A DNA stretch of 64,000 nt from Hyphomicrobium album (GTDB lineage: Bacteria > Pseudomonadota > Alphaproteobacteria > Rhizobiales > Hyphomicrobiaceae): assembly GCF_009708035.1 (NCBI RefSeq), contig NZ_WMBQ01000002.1, positions 124,001-188,000 of the forward strand, in the 5' to 3' direction. Of this stretch, positions 2,366 to 12,716 are shown piece after piece. The position numbers and the translations under genes are program-made. Under the pieces are notes generated by a model. That model did no database searches. It was given only the letters and a program-made list of their open reading frames with translations, and had not been told where the DNA came from. Position 1 is the first letter of the stretch, and each line of letters starts with the position of its first letter.

Positions 2366-4969
2366 TTAATCCACCATCTTGCGTAAGACCCGTGGCGGCT
2401 CGAAGTCAGCCGATTCGAAATCCTGTGGAGTGGATTCGTCCTGCAGCGCGATCGCCTCGGCTTCTTCGATCAACTGGGCGGCCACCGGAGCGGCAGGTGA
2501 CATCTCGAGCTGCGGCAATGCGGCCTCGGCCTCGAGCCGGTAGGCACCGCCGCTCAGCTTCATCAGGGCTTCCGGCAGCGACGCCTCGCTCACCGGCACG
2601 TGGAAGGTGGCGGTTTCACGCCGCAGCTCCACCCCGATGGTCGGGCGTCCGTCGACAGCTTCCGTCAATGGCTCGGCCGCCAGCGCCGTGGCGATGCGCT
2701 CGGCGAACGAGGTGGCGGGGCGCGGAGGGGCAACCGCTGCCTGCGCAGGTGCCGGGAAAGGCACGACGACTGCCGCTTCATCGGATTCGGGGCGCTCGGT
2801 ATTGCTGTTGGCGTGCTCGGGAGCGTCGTCGACATCGCGATACGTCGTCAACTCCGCCTCGGCGAGGCCCGCATAGCTGCCAAACCGCTGGCGGAACGCC
2901 TTGTCGCCGGCTGCCGGCGTTGGGCGCAGCCCCGGTTCGCGCCGCCGCTCCTCGGGTGCCGGTCCAATCGACAACGTATGCCGTGGCTCGGGCGCCGCGC
3001 CCGGCCGATGCTTGAAGATATTCGGACGCTTGCGCGTGCGGCGGCGGACCATGAGCTCGCTGTCGAGCCCGCTAGTGTCGATACCGGCGCGGCGCGGCTT
3101 GGCGGCAGCCGATACCTCGCGCTCGAACTCGGCGCGCACCTCGGCGACCTCCTCGACCGTCGGCTTCACGTGCTCTTGGCGGCGGCGCTCCGCCTCGATG
3201 CTCCCCGCCGCGCCCATGACGGCGCCGAGGATCAACTCCGGCCACGCCCCGCTCTTGAAGGCGTAGATGCGAAAGGCAGGGCGGTCGTCGGCCAGGCGGT
3301 CGGCAATGAAGAGGGACTTGAGCGCCCGGGCGGCGCGCGGCACCGGCGCGACGTGGTTGTCGCGGTAGCACTCGATGAACTTCGAACCCTGGCGGCGCAG
3401 CTTGCGGGTGGCGACGAGCCCAGGCGCGATCTTCCACGGGCGGGCGAGCACGCCCTGGCCCTCGAGCGCATAGCAGAGGTTGGCGAGGGCCTGCGCATCG
3501 CGGCGGAGCTGCTCGCGCTGGGGGTGGCCAAGCGGGGCATTGAGCGGCACGGCGACGTAGTAGGTGCCGCCCGATTCGAAGATCACCTCACGGAACACGT
3601 CGAACGTGCGCCGCAGCTCGTCGTGGTTATGGATCTCGGAAAAGCGCGACAGGATGGGAAACACCGGTCCGCGCTCGGCTTCGATCATGCTCTGGCGCGT
3701 GGCGACGAAGCGGTTCATCGGCCGCCCGATCGAGACGAGCAACAGGCAGAGGTCGACGAATACGGCGACGCCGAGAGGGATGTAATCCCGCTTCGAAAGC
3801 CCGACCGCCTCATGGTTGAGGGCGTGGAGAGAACCCGGATTCTCGATCGACTGCACCGCCCTCTGCTGGAGTTCGCGCAGTTCGTCCGCCGAGGGCGGAA
3901 GCTCGAACGACAGGAGGCCGAAAAACGTGGCGGTCAGACGCCGGAACGCCTCGATGGTCGCTTCCGAGCCCTCGACCGCGGCGATCTCCGGCTTCTCGAG
4001 CGTCGGGAGCTGATCGATCGCGCGCACCACGCCGCGCACTGCGACCTGCAACTGCGCGTCGGGACAGACGATGTGCTTGCCGTTGCCGCCGTCGATGGTG
4101 GTGCGCTCGGCGCGGTCGGCCAGGTCGGTGCGGATCTGGCGCAATTGGGGATCGGTGCGGAAGGCGTTGAATCCGGTCACGGTCATGTCGAGGCGCCGGC
4201 CGAGGGTGCGCATGAACTCGTTGCGCGTACCGTGCGCATCGATGATCGAGGTGTCGTTGGAGACGATCTTGGCGAGTTCGGCATCGAGGGCGCCCATGTC
4301 GCCCTTGATGGCGCCGACGCGGCCCTTCACGAACTCGGAGGCGAAGTTGAAGCGGGCGGCGTCCTCGTCGCGCATCTTGCGCCGCGGGCCGTCGCCCGGG
4401 GACGAGTTGGGACAGGAGGTGCCTTTGTCGCGCTCCAGCGTCGCCTTGTCGGTCGACATGGTGGAGAGCTGCACCAGCGTCGCCTGTAGTTGCTCGAGGC
4501 GCGTTGCCGCGGCGTGCAGCGACGATTGCACCTGGCCGACGGCGCTTTCCGCCGAACGGCCGGCCTCGGCGCGGCTTTCCAGGACTTTCCAGTAGAAACC
4601 GAAGCCGAAGCCGATCGAAATGATGGTCAGGAACACGTAGCCGAAGATGTAGGCGAGCCGCGTGAACCAGTCGACCGGCGAGAACATCTGGTCGAGCAGC
4701 CAGACGACCATGGTCATCAGCATGGCGACCGAGAAGCCGATGATCAGCTTATGGACCAGCGGCAGCGAGCCCATGTTGCTCTCGATGAGCTCGAGCATGC
4801 CGACATAGGTCGCGACCCACGACAGGCCGGCGAGCCCGACGATCAATACGAGCTTCTTCCAGTCGCGCTTGGGTGCATCTGGATCGGCCCAATCGGAAGG
4901 GGCCTCGTGGCCGAAGCCGCCGGTGGTAGTCCTCGTGCGCGACCATGGCGCGCCCGTCCGCAACGACAT
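2366..4969 (-). CDS. Four-TM coiled-coil membrane protein with long cytoplasmic tail (family unknown)
   Basis: About 867 residues from the ATG at 4969; a TTG 48 bases upstream would extend it and the start is uncertain. TM helices: about 40-60, 74-96, 104-127 (ending in the motif SIGFGFGFYW) and 396-415. The 270-residue segment between TM3 and TM4 starts with a predicted coiled coil (132-180) and holds two cysteines, C186 in SCPNSSPGDGPR and C302 in IVCPDAQ, that could pair outside the cytoplasm. After TM4 a soluble domain holds ESGGTYYVAVP (467-477), followed by a long charged, probably disordered tail to VLRKMVD. The gene at 59057-60907 repeats the same plan, including the GFGxGFxW motif, the cysteine spacing and the GG(T/S)Y strand, so the two are paralogues. 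Function unknown; an envelope sensor or scaffold is only an inference. Confidence 0.8.
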   Translation of the reverse strand: MSLRTGAPWSRTRTTTGGFGHEAPSDWADPDAPKRDWKKLVLIVGLAGLSWVATYVGMLELIESNMGSLPLVHKLIIGFSVAMLMTMVVWLLDQMFSPVDWFTRLAYIFGYVFLTIISIGFGFGFYWKVLESRAEAGRSAESAVGQVQSSLHAAATRLEQLQATLVQLSTMSTDKATLERDKGTSCPNSSPGDGPRRKMRDEDAARFNFASEFVKGRVGAIKGDMGALDAELAKIVSNDTSIIDAHGTRNEFMRTLGRRLDMTVTGFNAFRTDPQLRQIRTDLADRAERTTIDGGNGKHIVCPDAQLQVAVRGVVRAIDQLPTLEKPEIAAVEGSEATIEAFRRLTATFFGLLSFELPPSADELRELQQRAVQSIENPGSLHALNHEAVGLSKRDYIPLGVAVFVDLCLLLVSIGRPMNRFVATRQSMIEAERGPVFPILSRFSEIHNHDELRRTFDVFREVIFESGGTYYVAVPLNAPLGHPQREQLRRDAQALANLCYALEGQGVLARPWKIAPGLVATRKLRRQGSKFIECYRDNHVAPVPRAARALKSLFIADRLADDRPAFRIYAFKSGAWPELILGAVMGAAGSIEAERRRQEHVKPTVEEVAEVRAEFEREVSAAAKPRRAGIDTSGLDSELMVRRRTRKRPNIFKHRPGAAPEPRHTLSIGPAPEERRREPGLRPTPAAGDKAFRQRFGSYAGLAEAELTTYRDVDDAPEHANSNTERPESDEAAVVVPFPAPAQAAVAPPRPATSFAERIATALAAEPLTEAVDGRPTIGVELRRETATFHVPVSEASLPEALMKLSGGAYRLEAEAALPQLEMSPAAPVAAQLIEEAEAIALQDESTPQDFESADFEPPRVLRKMVD

Positions 4970-5186
4970 TGGTGACCTGCTCAACCGATCGGCGCACAGA
5001 TGGTCGTCGACCCGCAACGCCGTTAGCGCGCGGGACCGCCCACCACCGAATGCGCGAAACGCCTCTTTCGCTGTTCAGTGTCTTCCGTCGTGCCGGTAAG
5101 TGATCCAACGCCTTGGTAGGCGCGGTTTTTGTCGCCAGTACGGCGCGCCGATGGCGGAACGCGGCTGGTGCGGAACTTCGCACAGC

Positions 5187-7664
5187 TCAGTTCGATGTGA
5201 GGCGCGCCGGCTTCTTCGCTCCGGATACTGAAGCGGCCGGCGCCTTCTTTGCGGGCACAATCGGCGCCCGCTTCTTGCCCGACGCTTCCGCCTCCAAATC
5301 CGCCAGCAGTGCGTCGACGAGCGGTACGGCAACCTGCGCGGCGTGCAGGTTCCGCGCCCACGGCTCGCGCGCCGACCCGGTGCCGACGACGACGACGTAG
5401 GAGTAAGCGGCACCGCTGGCGAACTGCAGTCCGCCTGCGACCCAAGCGTCCACGGTGGCGTCGGAATCCTCCGTCACCTGCGTACCGGTCTTGGCGAAGT
5501 GCAGGTTGAGCCCGGGGCGTCGGGCCGCACACCAGGCCGAAAGATCCTTCAACGTGCCCGTCGGCTTGCCGGCCGCTTCATAGCAGAGCGGGGCTTGCAG
5601 GAGCGCCCGCACGAGGCTTCGCCCGCCGGCGCGGATGATCGAGTTGGGTACGATCTTGCGCGCCCGGTCGGGCTCCGGCTCGTTGGTGTTGGTGAAATCG
5701 TACTGCTTGACCAGCGTCGGCGCCGGAAGCGGCGTGCCGCCCCGGCCGATGAGACTGGCCAGAACGACGCCGGCCAGGTGGTGCACCCTCCGCGGCGCCG
5801 CTGCAACCTGGCCCAGCACCACGGCGGTCGACGGCGGGGTGCCGCTGCCGTCGGCGTTCACCGGCGGCATGTTGAAGCCGAGCTGATCGATCAGGCGTTG
5901 CACGCGCCCCTGTCCCACCTGCGCGGTGCGGTTCATGAGCGGGTCGTTGAGCGAGCAGGCGAAGGCAACGACGGCGCGCCGCCCCTGCCGCTGTTCGCCG
6001 CGCGCACAAGTCTCCAGCCCCTGCGCCGGTGCGTGCGCATCGAGATAGAGCGACTGCGGCGTGTCGCGCATGGTGTTGGCGATGGCGATGGCGGCGATGA
6101 TTTTGCCGGTCGATGCGACCATGCGGCTCTCGCGACCGCTGTCGTAGTAGCCGGTGCCCGTCTCGCGCGCGAATGGTGAGCCGAAATAAGCGGCGTTCTC
6201 GCCCTGCTCGTAGTAGCGGACGATCTCCCCGTCGGCGTTGGCAGCCGCCACGATGACGCCGGGGCTGTGGCGCTCGTCCGATATTTTGGCCGGGTCGAGG
6301 GTGAAACCGGCGTCTATCTTGTCGGCATACTTGCCGTCGACGTTGGCCAGCTTGCCGCGGATAACTCCACCGAGAGCGAGGTTCTTCACGACGTCGAAAG
6401 TGGTGGTGATGCCGCGCACGTGGTCGCGCCAGGCGAAACCGTAGCGCTGCTTCATCTCCTCGCGCACGCCGTAGCGCGCCGCCGGCATCAGTGCATTGGC
6501 GCGGATCACGGGGTTGGCCAGCGCCGCCAGCGCCTGACCGGGCGCGTACTCGTCCAGCGCGTGCTGCAGGCGCGGCTTGATCTTCGGGTCGGGCGGCCCG
6601 GCAGCCATGGCGACGAGATCGAACAGCACCTCCTTCTGCAGCGCCTCGTCCTTGATGAGCTTCTCGGCACAGGTACGCGCCCGCACCTCGACGATGTAGC
6701 GCCAGCGGTCGAGCCGCACGGCATTGAGCCGTTCGCTGCCCTCCATGAGAATGATCGGCCGGTTGACGGCGGAGGCGAGCACGAACTGCTCGGCGATCGT
6801 CAAGTCGGGAGATTCCTTGCCGAACACGATGCGGCTCGTGAGCTCGATGCCGTGCAGGGGCGCGCCGCCCGTCCGCTGCGCCAGCCAGAGGTGGTTCGCG
6901 GCCCATTGCTTCAACGCCGTCTGGCTGCCGTTTCCGGTCAGCTCGCGGTAGATGACCGGCGCCAGCCACCATTCGCCGAACTTGCGCTTCAGCTTCACCA
7001 GCGCGCCTTCGCTGGCGTGCGGCGGGGTCTTGTAGATGACGCGGACGAGCTGCATCGAAAGCGTCGATCCGCCCACGCCCAGCACCAGCCGCTTGGCGGC
7101 GATCGAGCGGCGCACGGTCGAGAACGGGATCTTCAAGACGCCTGGCAGGTCGATGCCAAACGGGTTCAGCACGCCACCGAGATTGCGGTCCTCGTGATAG
7201 ACGAGGCACTGCCAATATTGCTCCGGGACTTCGCGCACCGGGATCGACTTGTGATCGGGGTTGGCGACGTAGTCGCCGACGTCGATCGCCTCGCTCGTGT
7301 AGTTTACATCGCGCAGGCTATCGAGGCGCGGATCGAACGTTCCAACGAAGCTGCCGCGCGCATCGTAGATCGCGGTCGCCAGCCAGCGCTCGGCGTCATA
7401 ATGCAGCTTTGGCCCGAGCGTGTAGTGGCCGACCGCGCCGCGGATCGGAGCCAGCACATAGACGAGGATGAGTGCGCTGCAGACGTAGAAGATGCCGGCC
7501 GCAGCGACGTGGCGCAGCGGGCCGAGGCGGGGGTTGAACGCCACCCGATCGAGCAGAAGATGCAAAATGCGGAACGGCAGCAGCGCCAGGAGCTCTAGCG
7601 CTCGCACGAGCACGCGGAATACGACGAGCATTGGCCTGCCGGCTCGCACGAGGGATGAGCGCAA
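5187..7664 (-). CDS. Bifunctional penicillin-binding protein (atypical GT51 glycosyltransferase plus transpeptidase)
   Basis: 825 residues. One N-terminal TM helix (about 52-72) anchors a periplasmic protein. A GT51 glycosyltransferase region follows, with the glutamate motif HEDRN (E158) and GGSTLSMQLVR (198-208). The transpeptidase region has all three serine-enzyme motifs: STGK (S518, K521), SLN (571-573) and KTGT (725-728). It should polymerise lipid II glycan chains and crosslink stem peptides. The GT51 part is odd: the usual EDRxFxxHxGxD reads EDRNLGGVLNPFGID, without the phenylalanine and histidine, and the canonical RKxxE...YLN stretch is poorly kept. The Lys/Ala-rich tail (KKRAPIVPAKKAPAA) is low complexity. 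Upstream of the four-TM protein on the same strand with a gap of about 217 bp, so cotranscription is possible. Could be PbpC-like given the alpha-2-macroglobulin nearby. Confidence 0.85.
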   Translation of the reverse strand: MRSSLVRAGRPMLVVFRVLVRALELLALLPFRILHLLLDRVAFNPRLGPLRHVAAAGIFYVCSALILVYVLAPIRGAVGHYTLGPKLHYDAERWLATAIYDARGSFVGTFDPRLDSLRDVNYTSEAIDVGDYVANPDHKSIPVREVPEQYWQCLVYHEDRNLGGVLNPFGIDLPGVLKIPFSTVRRSIAAKRLVLGVGGSTLSMQLVRVIYKTPPHASEGALVKLKRKFGEWWLAPVIYRELTGNGSQTALKQWAANHLWLAQRTGGAPLHGIELTSRIVFGKESPDLTIAEQFVLASAVNRPIILMEGSERLNAVRLDRWRYIVEVRARTCAEKLIKDEALQKEVLFDLVAMAAGPPDPKIKPRLQHALDEYAPGQALAALANPVIRANALMPAARYGVREEMKQRYGFAWRDHVRGITTTFDVVKNLALGGVIRGKLANVDGKYADKIDAGFTLDPAKISDERHSPGVIVAAANADGEIVRYYEQGENAAYFGSPFARETGTGYYDSGRESRMVASTGKIIAAIAIANTMRDTPQSLYLDAHAPAQGLETCARGEQRQGRRAVVAFACSLNDPLMNRTAQVGQGRVQRLIDQLGFNMPPVNADGSGTPPSTAVVLGQVAAAPRRVHHLAGVVLASLIGRGGTPLPAPTLVKQYDFTNTNEPEPDRARKIVPNSIIRAGGRSLVRALLQAPLCYEAAGKPTGTLKDLSAWCAARRPGLNLHFAKTGTQVTEDSDATVDAWVAGGLQFASGAAYSYVVVVGTGSAREPWARNLHAAQVAVPLVDALLADLEAEASGKKRAPIVPAKKAPAASVSGAKKPARLTSN

Positions 7665-8180: not shown

Positions 8181-11100
8181 TCAGCCGCGCTTGCTATTTT
8201 GCATGGCCGCCCTGCGTGCGGGCGCATCGAACAAGCGCAGCTGGCGCTCGTCCTGGCCCTTCGTTTCGCGGGCCAATTGCTCGATGCGATCGAACGGCAC
8301 CTGCTCGGCCATGATGAGCGAACGCTGGGCCTTCATCGGCCGCACAAGCCCCTCCTGCACGAGGTGGAACTCGCCGACCGTCTGGCCTGGCAGCACCGCC
8401 GCCGGCTCGAGTCCCGACTCGCTCTGGAACGCCGCCTTGAGCTTGCGCAGCGCCGTGTCCTCACGCACGCGGCCGATGAACCAGCTCGTGATCTGATCGC
8501 GGCTCTTGTAGTCGAGGTCGCCCGGCGACTGCGTCGCCAGCATCATGCCGAGACCGGCCGACCGGGCGCGCTTGAGCAAGCTCTGCAGCGGCTCGGCGGT
8601 AGCCGGCTTGGCATTGGCCGGAATGTAAAGATCGGCTTCGTCGAACATGACGACCGCCTGTAGTTCGTCGTTCGGGTTGCGCTGGCAGAAGCGCAGCGCC
8701 TCGGCCAAGAACTGCGAGACCCAGAAGAGGATGTTCTCGTTGTCGCCGAGGAAGCCCGTATAGATGATCGACAGGCGCGTGCGCCCGTCGCGGGCATAGG
8801 GGCCGAGCCCCAGCAGCGATTCCATGCGCAGCGATTCACCGCCCGCCTCGAACAGCGAGGAGTTGCGGTGGCGGAGGCTGTCGAGCTGGGCGACCAGGTC
8901 GCGGCGCAGCTTGCCGGAGGGATCCATGCGCTGCGTCAGGTCGGCAAGCTCCGGGTCATCGTCCTCGAGGAGGTGGATGAGGTCGTTGAGCGTCACCTCG
9001 CGGCTGTGGCGCGAGCCGAGGATGCGCAGGGCAACCGACAGCGTGCCGGACTGCTTCTGGTGGGTCGCTGAGTTCTTCAGGTGCAGCATCTCGCCGATCG
9101 CGGCAGATGACAGGTTGGCCAGCAGCTGCTGCTCGTGCTCGGGCAGCTCGTTGATGCCGTTGGGCAGCAGCGTGATGGAGATCGGGCGTCCCGAGGAGCG
9201 CCCCGGCGTGAACACCGCGACGTCGATCGCGTCGGCCAGCTTCTCGCGCTCGCCGCGGCGCTCGGAGAATTCCTCGTCGTTCTCGCGCCAGACATCCGGA
9301 TTGGCATAGCTGCACAGGTCGCCCTTGCGGTCGATGAGCACGGCCGGGATGCCGCGCAGCAGGAGCTGCTCGATGATGGTCAAAGCGAGCGTGGTCTTAC
9401 CGGAGCCGGAGCCGCCGAGCACCGCCGCGTGGCGCTTCAAGACGTTCTTGTTGAGCGTGATCGACTTGGCGCCAGGGCGCAGCTCGCGGCCGGCAACGAT
9501 GCTCGAGCCGCCGCCGTTCTCATCGAGGATGACCGACAGGGGCAACTGCTCCTCCTCGTCACCAATCACCGGCTCGGAGGGCTGCACTTCATGGAGCGCG
9601 CTGACGAGGCTGCGCCCGCCGTTCGCCTTGGTCCCGTTGACTGCTGCCTCGGCTTCCGCCGCGGCGGACTTCGGCAGCGCCCGGCCGAGCAAGTCGAGGC
9701 GCAAGAGCTGGATGATGAGCGGCAGGTTCGACAACAGCTTGGCATTGCCGAGCCAGCCGGCGAAACCCGGATCCTGGCGATGGTGCGTGTGGAACTCGCG
9801 CACCATCATCATGCGCTCCCACTCGGCGATCGGCACGGTGGCCGTGCGACCGCCGTTCTCGCGGAACTTGCGCACCGCCTGCGCCGTCTGGTTCTTGCGG
9901 TTGGGCGGGAAGTCGGAAGCCCGCAGCATGAAGCACTGCTTGGCGCCCATGTTCGGCAGCACGCGGTCGAGCTGGCGCTTCAGGCCGCCGCCCTGGGTCG
10001 GCTTGTTGCACACGAACACGCGGCCGTCGGTGGCGTAGCCGGCCTTGTGCTTCAGCGTGAAGTCGATGGCCGAGATGTCGTCGCCGAAGTCGAGGCGCTC
10101 GACGTTGAGCTGGATGGTGCCGGCCCACTCCTCCTTGGAGAGCGCCAAGGCGCCGGCAAGAATATCGAGAAGCTCGCGTTCGTCGGACGGGATCTCCGCC
10201 TCCGACGCGTTCTGGAACCGCTCCCACGTGTCGCGGTAGTCGACGCTGGCATCGGACGCGGCCGCGCCGTCGCCTTCAGCCGCGAAGCCGAGCCCGAGGG
10301 CTGCGGCGAGGCGGGAGATGAAGCCACCGCCGGTTTCGGGTACCGCGGCGCCCTCCTCGGGCTCGTCCGCGTCGGGCGCTGTCTTGGTACGCAACCGATT
10401 GTGGGCGTGCTCGAGCAGCCGCCGCGTCGATAGTCCGGCGAACTCCTCGTAGAACTGTGGACCGAAGTAGGCGGACGGGTCGGGATAGCTGGCGCTGATG
10501 TCGCCCGTAGCGGACAGGTGGGCGAGGCGCTTGGCGATAATCAGCCTCGCCTCTTCCGGCGTCCGGCTCTCCAGCAGCGCCACCGGGCCGGCCTTCTCGA
10601 TGCGATCGATGTAGGACTGGGCGAGCACGCCGCGCACCTGTCCGTAGAAGTCTTCCAGGCAGGAGATGATGAGAATGGCGTTGGGGACGCGGTTGGCGAT
10701 CTGGATCAAGTCGCGCACGGCGCGCTGGAAGCGCTCCTCGGCGTCGGAGAAGAAGCGCAGATCCTCGACCTGATCGACGCAAAAGACGAGCGCGGCACGG
10801 TCGACCGTCCACATCAGCGCGCCGAGCGCGGCGATGATCTCGAAGGCGCGGTCCTCGCCGCCGTTGGGATCGAGCGCGGCGACGGCCTGATGCGCGAGAT
10901 CGGTCAGCGGGCGGCCGTGCAGATACTGGCGGATGCGCTGGTCGACGCGCGGGTCGCGGCGTTCCAGATAGAGCAGCGCGCGCACGACGTTGATGTCGAG
11001 CTCCTGCGCGGAATACTTGGGCGAGGCGACGATATCGTCGGCGATCTTGAGGACGAGCTTGGCAAGCTTCGCCTCATCCAGGCTCGCCTCGCGCAGGTTC

Positions 11101-11561
11101 TGCAGGTCCTTGGCGTCGATCGCGGCTTTCGCGACAATGCGGTCGGTCAGGCGGGTCAGCGCGCTCTCGCCGGAAGAATCCGGGTCGTAGGTCTTCTCGA
11201 GCGAATGGACGAGGCGGCGCAGATAGTAGTCAGCGTAGTTCGCCACGTCGGGCGTCATCTGTGCATAGCCGAAGTAGGCGCTACCCGCGCGGTGCGCGTT
11301 GGTGCGCAGCGCGCGCAACAGGTGCGTCTTGCCGGCGCCCGACTGACCGTGGAACAGCAGGATGCGATCCTGCGTGCCGGGGCCCTTGCCGGCGATGATG
11401 CCGGACAGAAGATCGTTGAACTTGCGCCGAGCCTTGGCGTGCACCTCCGCGACGTCGACCGGGTCGGCGCGCCAGATATCGTCTTCCCAGGTGATCGACT
11501 GCTCGAACGCCGAGAACAGGCGATCAGGTGCTGGCTGCGGAGAAGCTTCTTTGAGCTGCAT
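8181..11561 (-). CDS. Double P-loop ATPase: AAA/STAND-like module fused to a HerA/DUF87-like translocase module
   Basis: 1126 residues with two complete NTPase sites. Module 1 (about 1-395): Walker A GQSGAGKT (72-79), Walker B-like ALVFCVDQVEDL (D263), sensor-like LIISCLED (298-304) and a helical lid to about 390. A Gly/Ala/Glu-rich linker leads to an unassigned alpha/beta domain (about 460-625). Module 2 (about 675-1095): Walker A GGSGSGKT (716-723), VLIDRKGDL (741-749), Walker B VVMFDEADLYIP (D974, E975) and ATQSPGDLD (1009-1017), the pattern of HerA/VirB4-type hexameric translocases. Downstream of the 11583-12716 gene with only 21 bp between, so one operon. Role unknown: DNA or protein translocation in defence or chromosome maintenance is inferred from the module types. 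No TM segment or nuclease motif was recognised. Confidence 0.8.
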   Translation of the reverse strand: MQLKEASPQPAPDRLFSAFEQSITWEDDIWRADPVDVAEVHAKARRKFNDLLSGIIAGKGPGTQDRILLFHGQSGAGKTHLLRALRTNAHRAGSAYFGYAQMTPDVANYADYYLRRLVHSLEKTYDPDSSGESALTRLTDRIVAKAAIDAKDLQNLREASLDEAKLAKLVLKIADDIVASPKYSAQELDINVVRALLYLERRDPRVDQRIRQYLHGRPLTDLAHQAVAALDPNGGEDRAFEIIAALGALMWTVDRAALVFCVDQVEDLRFFSDAEERFQRAVRDLIQIANRVPNAILIISCLEDFYGQVRGVLAQSYIDRIEKAGPVALLESRTPEEARLIIAKRLAHLSATGDISASYPDPSAYFGPQFYEEFAGLSTRRLLEHAHNRLRTKTAPDADEPEEGAAVPETGGGFISRLAAALGLGFAAEGDGAAASDASVDYRDTWERFQNASEAEIPSDERELLDILAGALALSKEEWAGTIQLNVERLDFGDDISAIDFTLKHKAGYATDGRVFVCNKPTQGGGLKRQLDRVLPNMGAKQCFMLRASDFPPNRKNQTAQAVRKFRENGGRTATVPIAEWERMMMVREFHTHHRQDPGFAGWLGNAKLLSNLPLIIQLLRLDLLGRALPKSAAAEAEAAVNGTKANGGRSLVSALHEVQPSEPVIGDEEEQLPLSVILDENGGGSSIVAGRELRPGAKSITLNKNVLKRHAAVLGGSGSGKTTLALTIIEQLLLRGIPAVLIDRKGDLCSYANPDVWRENDEEFSERRGEREKLADAIDVAVFTPGRSSGRPISITLLPNGINELPEHEQQLLANLSSAAIGEMLHLKNSATHQKQSGTLSVALRILGSRHSREVTLNDLIHLLEDDDPELADLTQRMDPSGKLRRDLVAQLDSLRHRNSSLFEAGGESLRMESLLGLGPYARDGRTRLSIIYTGFLGDNENILFWVSQFLAEALRFCQRNPNDELQAVVMFDEADLYIPANAKPATAEPLQSLLKRARSAGLGMMLATQSPGDLDYKSRDQITSWFIGRVREDTALRKLKAAFQSESGLEPAAVLPGQTVGEFHLVQEGLVRPMKAQRSLIMAEQVPFDRIEQLARETKGQDERQLRLFDAPARRAAMQNSKRG

Positions 11562-11582
11562 CAGTTGACGGCCCTCTACGTC

Positions 11583-12716
11583 TCAGTCTTCAACGCGCAC
11601 GTAGTGCCAAACGGTATTTTTGTAGAGGATCGCGGAATCCTCGAACTCCTTGATGTGTTGTTTGTTCTTGAGGTCCGCGCCGGCGAGAACCAGCTGACCC
11701 GCCCGGTGGGCGCCGGACAGCATGTCCTTGAACTCGATCTCGGAGAGGCCCCATTCGGGGTGCGAGGTGCGAATCGCGTCCCACACCTTCGAGATAAACG
11801 CCTTACGGGCCCCTGGCCAGCCCTCGGCGCAGGTGCGTGCCGTGTTGAGCACACCGGCGGAAAATTGCGCCAGTCCAGGGCGCTGCGGCGTCGCATCGGC
11901 TTGTGGTGTGAACTTGGGCGCCGCCGGCGGTGGCGAATCGCCAACGGCTCGCAACGCCGATTTGGGCGTGACGGGCGCGGCGCTCGGTGCATCGGCAAGT
12001 ACGAGCTTGCGCAGCACGGCGAGGCGCAGCGCGTCGATGTCGAAGCGTGGGCTCGCGGCATAGTCGGCGCACAGCGCGGCGACGAGGCGTGTATCGGTCG
12101 GCAACTCGCGCGGCTTCTGCAACAATTGCCCGGCCAGCACGCGCCCGGCCTTGGCCGACAGTGCCGTTCCCTTGGCGAGGCCTTCCTTGACGTTGCCGCC
12201 GAACGCCCGCTCGAGCGCCACCAGCGCCAGGGCGGCGCGCAGCTTCGACGGTGACAGCGCTTGGCGCACGGCGAGCCCGAAGGCGTGCTGAACCACGAGG
12301 GCACTCAAGCCGTCGGGACGCGATAAAGCCGCACGCAGCGCCGGTTTTCCGGGATCGACGCCGAGCGACTTGGCGACGAGCCAAATATCGCGCTGGTCGT
12401 TCCAGGTGCGGGCGTGCACCTCTTTCTCGCCGAAATATGCGGCGACGGCCGCTTCGCCTCCGTCGGTCAGGCGCAGACGTCCGCGTACATCGCGCATCTG
12501 ACCGTTCATCATCAGGCGGGCGAGGGCCGTGTCGGCGGCCGTCTTCCACTGGGCGGTCGACAGGTTGCCACTCATCAGCGGACCCAGGTCGCGCACGATC
12601 TGGGCGCGCGTGGCGCCGCCCGAGCAGGCGATGCGGGTCAGGACGAGATTATCGACAGCGGAAGGCGCGGCTCCGCCTGCAGGCGCTGGCTGCGCTTTGG
12701 CGCTCAGGGCCGACAT
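11583..12716 (-). CDS. Unknown partner protein of the double ATPase, 377 aa
   Basis: First gene of the two-gene operon, with AGGAGA 8 bases before the ATG at 12716. Residues 20-95 read as a winged-helix-like fold (TRAQIVRDLGPLM, ALARLMMNGQMRDV, GRLRLTDGGEAAV), including a wing-like strand pair. Residues 105-225 are helical, an Ala/Pro-rich linker spans 230-285, and a compact C-terminal domain (about 295-377) carries WGLSEIEFKDMLSGAHRAG and QLVLAGADLKNKQ. I recall similar C-terminal domains in proteins placed beside large ATPases, but cannot name the family. Likely a DNA-binding adaptor or regulator that works with the ATPase. Cytoplasmic; no signal or TM segments. Confidence 0.75.
   Translation of the reverse strand: MSALSAKAQPAPAGGAAPSAVDNLVLTRIACSGGATRAQIVRDLGPLMSGNLSTAQWKTAADTALARLMMNGQMRDVRGRLRLTDGGEAAVAAYFGEKEVHARTWNDQRDIWLVAKSLGVDPGKPALRAALSRPDGLSALVVQHAFGLAVRQALSPSKLRAALALVALERAFGGNVKEGLAKGTALSAKAGRVLAGQLLQKPRELPTDTRLVAALCADYAASPRFDIDALRLAVLRKLVLADAPSAAPVTPKSALRAVGDSPPPAAPKFTPQADATPQRPGLAQFSAGVLNTARTCAEGWPGARKAFISKVWDAIRTSHPEWGLSEIEFKDMLSGAHRAGQLVLAGADLKNKQHIKEFEDSAILYKNTVWHYVRVED

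Follow-up and report, generated by a model that had tools for sequence, protein, structure and literature searches.

The window analysed here, 64,000 nucleotides (nt) of Hyphomicrobium album (positions 124,001 to 188,000 of contig NZ_WMBQ01000002.1), comes from a genome of 3.9 Mb and holds, at positions 8181-12716 of the minus strand, a two-gene operon for a double ATPase, P0001, and a smaller partner protein, P0002. Both genes were confirmed as open reading frames (ORFs) where a first-pass annotation had placed them, with the proposed lengths: the partner (377 amino acids, aa) is encoded at 11583-12716 and the ATPase (1126 aa) at 8181-11561, 21 nt apart on the same strand. Regarding the association of the two genes, the partner was found with the ATPase in 135 of the 143 loci with a strong ATPase match, a count that is partly redundant, as several loci come from one genome; the remaining eight had at most 220 bases available upstream. 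ATPase and partner lay on the same strand in all 64 loci counted, with a median gap of 24 nt, measured between gene starts that were set mechanically. Throughout, the family of the source organism is labelled f1, and the other families of the sample f2-f45.

P0001 carries two unlike P-loop modules in one polypeptide, as the first-pass annotation had proposed, matched by distinct hidden Markov model (HMM) families in its N- and C-terminal thirds. The first, residues 42-395 (10377-11438, minus strand), is an Orc/Cdc6-BrxC-like AAA+ module: in HMM searches, Pfam AAA_22, AAA_16 and BrxC_BrxD matched residues 63-314, and the NCBIfam BrxD match, with 6e-10, stayed under the family cut-off. The best Foldseek match of the AlphaFold2 (AF2) model of P0001 was the AAA+ domain of BrxC (9zll_B, E 2.1e-4), the sole match at or below 0.001; TrwB, HerA, ORC/Cdc6 chains and unrelated low-probability matches ranked below it. 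This model, built on an alignment of 60 close homologues (A2), had a mean predicted local distance difference test (pLDDT) score of 69.5, with good values for the AAA+ and middle domains. The Walker A motif, GQSGAGKT at 72-79, and D263 are located as proposed, and G72, G77, K78, T79 and D263 are identical in all members of a second alignment (A1) of 32 homologues down to ~20% identity; R320, R345 and R380, like both Walker A motifs, D263, D974 and E975, are invariant in these 32 and in the 60 close homologues alike.

In the Walker B motif of this module, D263-Q264 (10770-10775, minus strand), glutamine replaces the expected catalytic glutamate, and the pair is invariant in both alignments (32/32 in A1, 60/60 in A2). 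A regular expression recovered it in 103 of 133 rows, the other 30 being missed through flanking letters or partial rows, and the alignment counts are preferred. Q264 was equated with the BrxC glutamate by motif and by its position where the predicted strand 257-263 ends, rather than by a residue-level structural alignment. BrxC engineered with E269Q has lower ATPase activity and a more stable ATP-bound dimer, yet still binds DNA in an ATP-dependent manner; the exchange abolishes restriction in Acinetobacter BREX, and in E. fergusonii restriction is retained and methylation is lost (PMC13326643). By analogy, the AAA+ module of P0001 can bind ATP and probably hydrolyses it poorly owing to its D-Q Walker B, and the "sensor" first assigned to this part is sharpened into an AAA+ site with Q264 at the position of the catalytic glutamate.

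The AAA+ module is followed by a middle domain, residues 441-628 (9678-10241, minus strand), where an alpha/beta linker at 460-625 had been noted; AF2 gives an alpha/beta domain at ~442-625, mostly with good confidence. Its elements are ordered H-EEE-H-E-H-E, and the succession of helix, three strands, helix, strand, helix and strand is that of the restriction-endonuclease fold. E478 and W603 are invariant in 32/32 homologues, no catalytic D/E-x-K was seen in the domain, and sequence searches of it against Pfam and the PDB gave no convincing match; the one PDB match was a protein named PLZ2.3 (E 3.4e-4 over 33 residues). A relationship to a DUF559 protein was also considered, and the comparison was unsupportive. 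On the strength of the modelled element order and of the absence of a D/E-x-K, the middle domain is probably a catalytically dead restriction-endonuclease fold.

As for the second P-loop module, residues 681-1100 (8262-9521, minus strand) form a HerA/FtsK-type motor with a helical insert at ~808-925. Pfam DUF87 (3.4e-11) and HerA_C (6.5e-11) matched residues 699-1023, in line with the HerA/DUF87-like assignment made at first; solved HerA chains matched from 1.6e-17, the best PADLOC match of P0001 was mad8 (E 3.2e-21, in the HerA part), and the NCBIfam HerA match was under the family cut-off. The second Walker A, GGSGSGKT at 716-723, and the Walker B residues D974-E975 also stand where they had been reported: G719, G721, K722, T723, D974 and E975 are identical in 32/32 homologues, and R1000 and Q1011 are kept in 31/32, with one gap. 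Because these landmark residues remain identical down to ~20% identity, the P-loop sites of P0001 are not chance matches. Median identity to P0001 across 59 homologues was 87% for the HerA motor, 69% for the AAA+ module and 64% for the middle domain. With its Walker A and B motifs intact, the motor is expected to act as a hexameric translocase of double-stranded DNA. A stand-alone HerA-like protein of 453 aa, with 34% identity to the P0001 motor, was seen on a viral contig of 199 kb (L164).

A feature absent from the first-pass annotation lies at the extreme C-terminus. P0001 ends ...QLRLFDAPARRAAMQNSKRG, and residues 1107-1111, QLRLF (8229-8243, minus strand), form a motif of the sliding-clamp-binding type in a tail with pLDDT below 50. 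The clamp-binding consensus has been given as QLxLF, usually C-terminal (PMC4549789), and in a widened form as Qφx[L/M][F/L] and Qφx[L/M]x[F/L] (PMC13254535). Of 77 unique complete ATPases picked by BLAST (the window's own and L032-L109), 70 had QLxLF within their last 40 residues, versus none of 706 other ORFs from the same DNA, two of which had it anywhere; across all close loci the count was 79/91. The Q, L, L and F of the motif are kept in 55-60 of 60 rows, and its third position and the residues that follow are variable, which is the appearance of a docking peptide. Tails in other families read QLKLF (f25), QLKLEL (f18), QLRLDI (f38), QLLFDF (f2) and QIGFxF (f32). A C-terminal QLxLF-type motif was absent from seven f29, Methylobacterium and Actinobacterial relatives; of the internal QLxLF-like matches in the Actinobacterial and Methylobacterium relatives, three lay in a core helix of HerA and one in the AAA+ part, and none was counted as a clamp motif. 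Judged from this pattern, docking of the machine on the DnaN sliding clamp is the probable function of the tail. Among the titles listed in searches of the open-licence PMC literature, none had a HerA protein with a clamp motif, or the operon itself, as its subject.

A HerA motor with a clamp-type motif would also suit a recombination or repair factor that works like HerA-NurA end resection with a nuclease encoded elsewhere, and E. coli RecB likewise binds the clamp (PMC13254535). This explanation is improbable: the operon has no nuclease, and AddA, like FtsK, was present in 18/18 genomes tested. The same count led to rejection of the idea that the machine replaces FtsK or AddA.

P0002 is predicted by AF2 (mean pLDDT 87.1) to have a winged-helix-like N-terminus at ~19-85, as had been suggested from its sequence, a helical middle and a winged-helix-like C-terminal domain at 282-377; the winged-helix reading comes from the order of elements in the model. 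Searches of Pfam, NCBIfam and PADLOC gave no match for it, and nothing significant was found in the PDB: the best Foldseek hit, the MukF N-terminus, had E 0.08 and was set aside as a fold relative. Homology to DptG (profile against Priestia DptG, probability 0.3%) and to the Actinobacterial protein of 235 aa was likewise unsupported; the 353-aa partner of the f29 relatives is related to P0002. The protein evolves fast, with a median distance of 1.02 versus 0.38 for the ATPase at the same 70 loci, and it probably supplies DNA or protein recognition.

Regarding distribution, the ATPase orthologue was found in 76 of 79 genomes of the same family, as one match in 71 and split into two pieces in five, one of which (G033) has overlapping pieces and may hold a second copy. 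The three genomes without an orthologue are assemblies of 420-670 contigs, 90-94% complete, and a smaller family sample gave 35/36, the window's own genome included. In the order, 46 of 397 genomes were positive: 23 belong to f1, 8 to f29, where the homologues are divergent, and 15 to nine further families that hold close orthologues or pieces of them. The class-wide sample yielded 1/288, namely the window's own genome, and a profile search of the phylum 5/348, one being HerA-only. The P0001 patterns matched no viral contig, a broad profile reached three viral loci through the HerA part alone, and matches on plasmid records numbered seven, none spanning 80% of the query, and on phage records two, HerA part only. 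ATPase distances correlated with those of the partner and of the neighbouring genes labelled CAP, DAC, PBP and FLIP (Mantel r 0.87-0.91, 25-70 loci), alongside a CAP-DAC control of r 0.85 (37 loci). The 76/79 presence and this correlation constitute a vertical-inheritance signal: the pair is a conserved core locus of the family, vertically inherited, with gene order largely kept.

The pair was found in isolates and metagenome-assembled genomes of Hyphomicrobium and Filomicrobium, and Hyphomicrobium reproduces by passing its chromosome through a hypha into a bud. A DNA motor for this passage, which the strong conservation of the motor would suit, has a precedent in the suggestion of an FtsK/SpoIIIE-type AAA+ translocase for the stalked, budding Hyphomonas, whose transfer mechanism is unknown (PMC6650430). 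Such a role is nonetheless improbable, as FtsK is also present and, in a class-wide sample that may not include Hyphomonas, the window's own genome was the sole carrier. Co-occurrence with MreB was uninformative: MreB was found in 5/19 genomes of the order (G000, G018, G052, G059 and G072), that is, in 5/10 ATPase carriers and 0/9 non-carriers.

The neighbours of the pair in the window carry cell-envelope and metabolic Pfam domains. Of 56 named loci with room, 48 have a divergent CAP gene no more than 3 kb upstream; a PBP gene lies downstream in 30 of 55. Beyond f1, the pair is flanked by CAP, flippase and D,D-carboxypeptidase genes in f18, f25 and f32. The neighbours are the same in f38 except that no flippase was found, and the f2 contig stops past CAP. 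In the 62 named loci with 3 kb available, the ORFs downstream of the ATPase formed 55 clusters, 36 of them single; the largest (27 loci, 876-aa representative) was taken as the PBP family by position, and ten further representatives were MoeA, FAA hydrolase, a sigma factor, Usp, macroglobulin, a DinB-type polymerase, an AAA protein and three without a family. The gene of this DinB-type translesion polymerase (IMS family) lies just past the ATPase on the opposite strand in three loci, including L073 (13579-14919). In the window, the downstream protein of 825 aa (5187-7664, minus strand) has a Transgly domain (PF00912) followed by ~500 residues with no Pfam transpeptidase match, and its relatives make up the 30 of 55 downstream occurrences given above; an 883-aa protein (2366-5017, minus strand) has N-terminal hydrophobic stretches and no family match, and occurs near the pair in 21 loci.

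A Pfam scan of 12 neighbouring proteins of the window recognised no nuclease family, and NurA was likewise not recognised beside the pair; neither PglZ nor a methyltransferase was recognised among P0001-P0004 and ten neighbouring proteins (1633-27949). The absence of methylase, PglZ and nuclease genes reported in the first-pass annotation is borne out for the neighbours scanned. The ten downstream cluster representatives that were scanned, out of 55 clusters of which 36 are single ORFs, held no nuclease. DUF559 was present anywhere in the genome in 7 of 12 genomes from the family and near it, and with only this number it is no fixed partner. The description of the operon as a "minimal undescribed defence system" is not supported: the locus is near-universal and vertical with its gene order largely kept, which comes close to the universally conserved housekeeping genes that the first-pass annotation had named as refuting it, and its set of domains has a published counterpart in the Orc/CDC6-HerA/FtsK capture systems (PMC10853773). 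Near-universal presence and the distance correlation led to rejection of a defence island as the main reading.

Records of Nonomuraea, Tsukamurella and Methylobacterium contain full-length relatives (HMM E 3e-56 to 8e-43), and both Actinobacterial ones, from Nonomuraea and Tsukamurella, are preceded by a DUF559 nuclease gene and a gene of 223-235 aa. In the Tsukamurella plasmid record NZ_LR134464 (L157), the three-gene relative and its flanks sit inside a ribosomal-protein cluster, between rplN and rpsQ. On the Xanthobacter plasmid pXAUT01 (L139), a truncated 455-aa relative is accompanied by a 378-aa partner and adjacent insertion-sequence genes, which indicates that mobility is possible among divergent versions. 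Four f29 loci (L142, L145, L146 and L147) have, after the ATPase gene and on the same strand, a gene of 243 aa, which we take to resemble a ligase-associated-type metallophosphoesterase.

The nuclease of the Actinobacterial relatives and the plasmid copy in Xanthobacter speak for the main rival explanation, a core, vertically kept anti-invader system, as do the mad8 similarity, the fast evolution of P0002 and the anti-invader role proposed for the published capture systems (PMC10853773). In such a system the clamp tail would bring the translocase to replicating plasmids and phages, the fast-evolving partner would recognise invaders, and the motor would block or strip them or pass them to a nuclease encoded elsewhere. 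It is unlikely, though a serious competitor: no adjacent nuclease was recognised, DUF559 is in only 7/12 genomes, the pair is near-universal in the family with a vertical signal, and viral contigs had no match to the P0001 pattern, the three reached by the broad profile being HerA-only.

The favoured reading is the chromosome-maintenance option already raised in the first-pass annotation. The operon would encode a domesticated machine related to the Orc/CDC6-HerA/FtsK capture systems. Docking on the clamp through the QLxLF tail would bring this machine to freshly replicated DNA, an ATP-stabilised AAA+ assembly would position the HerA motor, and the motor would move or clear DNA for the host chromosome, in maintenance or segregation, rather than cut invaders. 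Service to its own chromosome is probable because the locus is inherited in the ordinary way, has no recognised nuclease and ends in a clamp-type tag in most versions; for the whole, a DNA translocase that has been domesticated, lacks a nuclease, is tethered to DnaN and serves the host chromosome, the chances stand about even. The domain make-up, the invariant residues, the operon structure, the near-universal presence and vertical inheritance in the family, and the tail motif with its conservation are observed; ATP-locking, the dead-nuclease fold, clamp binding, translocation and the chromosomal role are the parts that we infer.

It should be noted that several observations weigh against this reading. 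Seven of the 77 tails have no QLxLF (six read QIGFxF, from the sister group L089-L095, and one QPSLF), and the widened consensus also fits 9 of the 706 control ORFs, which leaves the hexapeptide-like tails seen in other families with little evidential weight. E266, two residues past Q264 and E or D in 32/32 homologues, might be the catalytic base; AF2 confidence in the HerA module is poor; and FtsK and AddA are found throughout the genomes tested. Gene order varies, with the CAP gene absent in 8/56 loci and the downstream PBP gene in 25/55. Finally, an anti-invader function has been proposed for the closest published kind, a core immune role is compatible with conservation by itself, and fast evolution of the partner can mark conflict.

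If the favoured reading is true, a DNA-capture machine of the anti-invader type has been turned into a replication-linked housekeeping motor, and the pair is a natural form of capture machine with no accompanying nuclease; its defined docking tail and naturally ATP-locked Orc-like module are directly testable. A bolder version, in which a conflict machine became a lineage-specific clamp-tethered motor whose ATP-locked Orc-like platform and HerA pump on DnaN move new DNA, perhaps through the hypha into the bud, is quite unlikely; if true, it would name a concrete candidate for the as yet unknown motor that moves DNA in hypha-budding bacteria.

As for known systems, with HerA-NurA the pair shares the HerA-type motor, but that of P0001 is fused to an AAA+ module and NurA was not recognised adjacent to it. 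With MADS it shares a mad8-like HerA module (PADLOC E 3.2e-21, with P0001 and P0002 scanned); the likeness is limited to this part, and the neighbours are of the cell-envelope and metabolic kind. Like DndFGH/DptFGH, the pair has a HerA/FtsK motor encoded beside a partner with winged-helix-like parts, but no dptF, dptG or dptH adjoins it and DptF/DptH-type matches are limited to the HerA part. BREX-related HerA systems with other partners have been described (PMC12839542). The resemblance to BREX or HerA cores noted at first is upheld by the BrxC_BrxD, DUF87/HerA_C and Foldseek BrxC matches: P0001 shares with BrxC/BrxD the AAA+ fold (9zll_B, E 2.1e-4) and HMM similarity, and differs in its fused HerA motor, its glutamine at the Walker B glutamate and the lack of PglZ or methyltransferase among the neighbours scanned.

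The closest kind is that of the Orc/CDC6-HerA/FtsK capture systems, which, within a single protein or spread over several, combine Orc/CDC6 AAA+, HerA/FtsK and winged-helix domains with an inactive and an active restriction endonuclease (REase), lie in mobile neighbourhoods and are proposed to be anti-invader (PMC10853773, NAR 2024); the main text of that paper does not contain the word "clamp". In the relatives compared here, the D-Q pair is present and the C-terminal motif absent. The N-terminal part of the f29 relatives matches that of P0001 (27% over 57-622, E 4.5e-28 for the best of them). Their HerA part instead matches Priestia DptH (39% over 364 aa, 253 bits; 237-253 bits in three relatives), with only ~30 bits shared with the P0001 HerA motor, which itself scores ~31 bits against Priestia DptH; the HerA and AAA+ trees have long branches and were used only alongside these pairwise scores. 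This exchange of modules, related AAA+ parts with different HerA types, fits the published idea of HerA capture. The Hyphomicrobium pair shares with the capture systems an Orc/CDC6-clade AAA+ module, a HerA/FtsK motor, a middle domain of restriction-fold element order between them and an extra, rapidly evolving protein with winged-helix-like parts, P0002. Unlike them, it has no recognised adjacent active REase, and its neighbourhood, a core locus of the family, is not a mobile one. Because the capture layout is shared, and the active nuclease and mobility are not, the pair is filed as a derived variant of the capture systems rather than an intact member.

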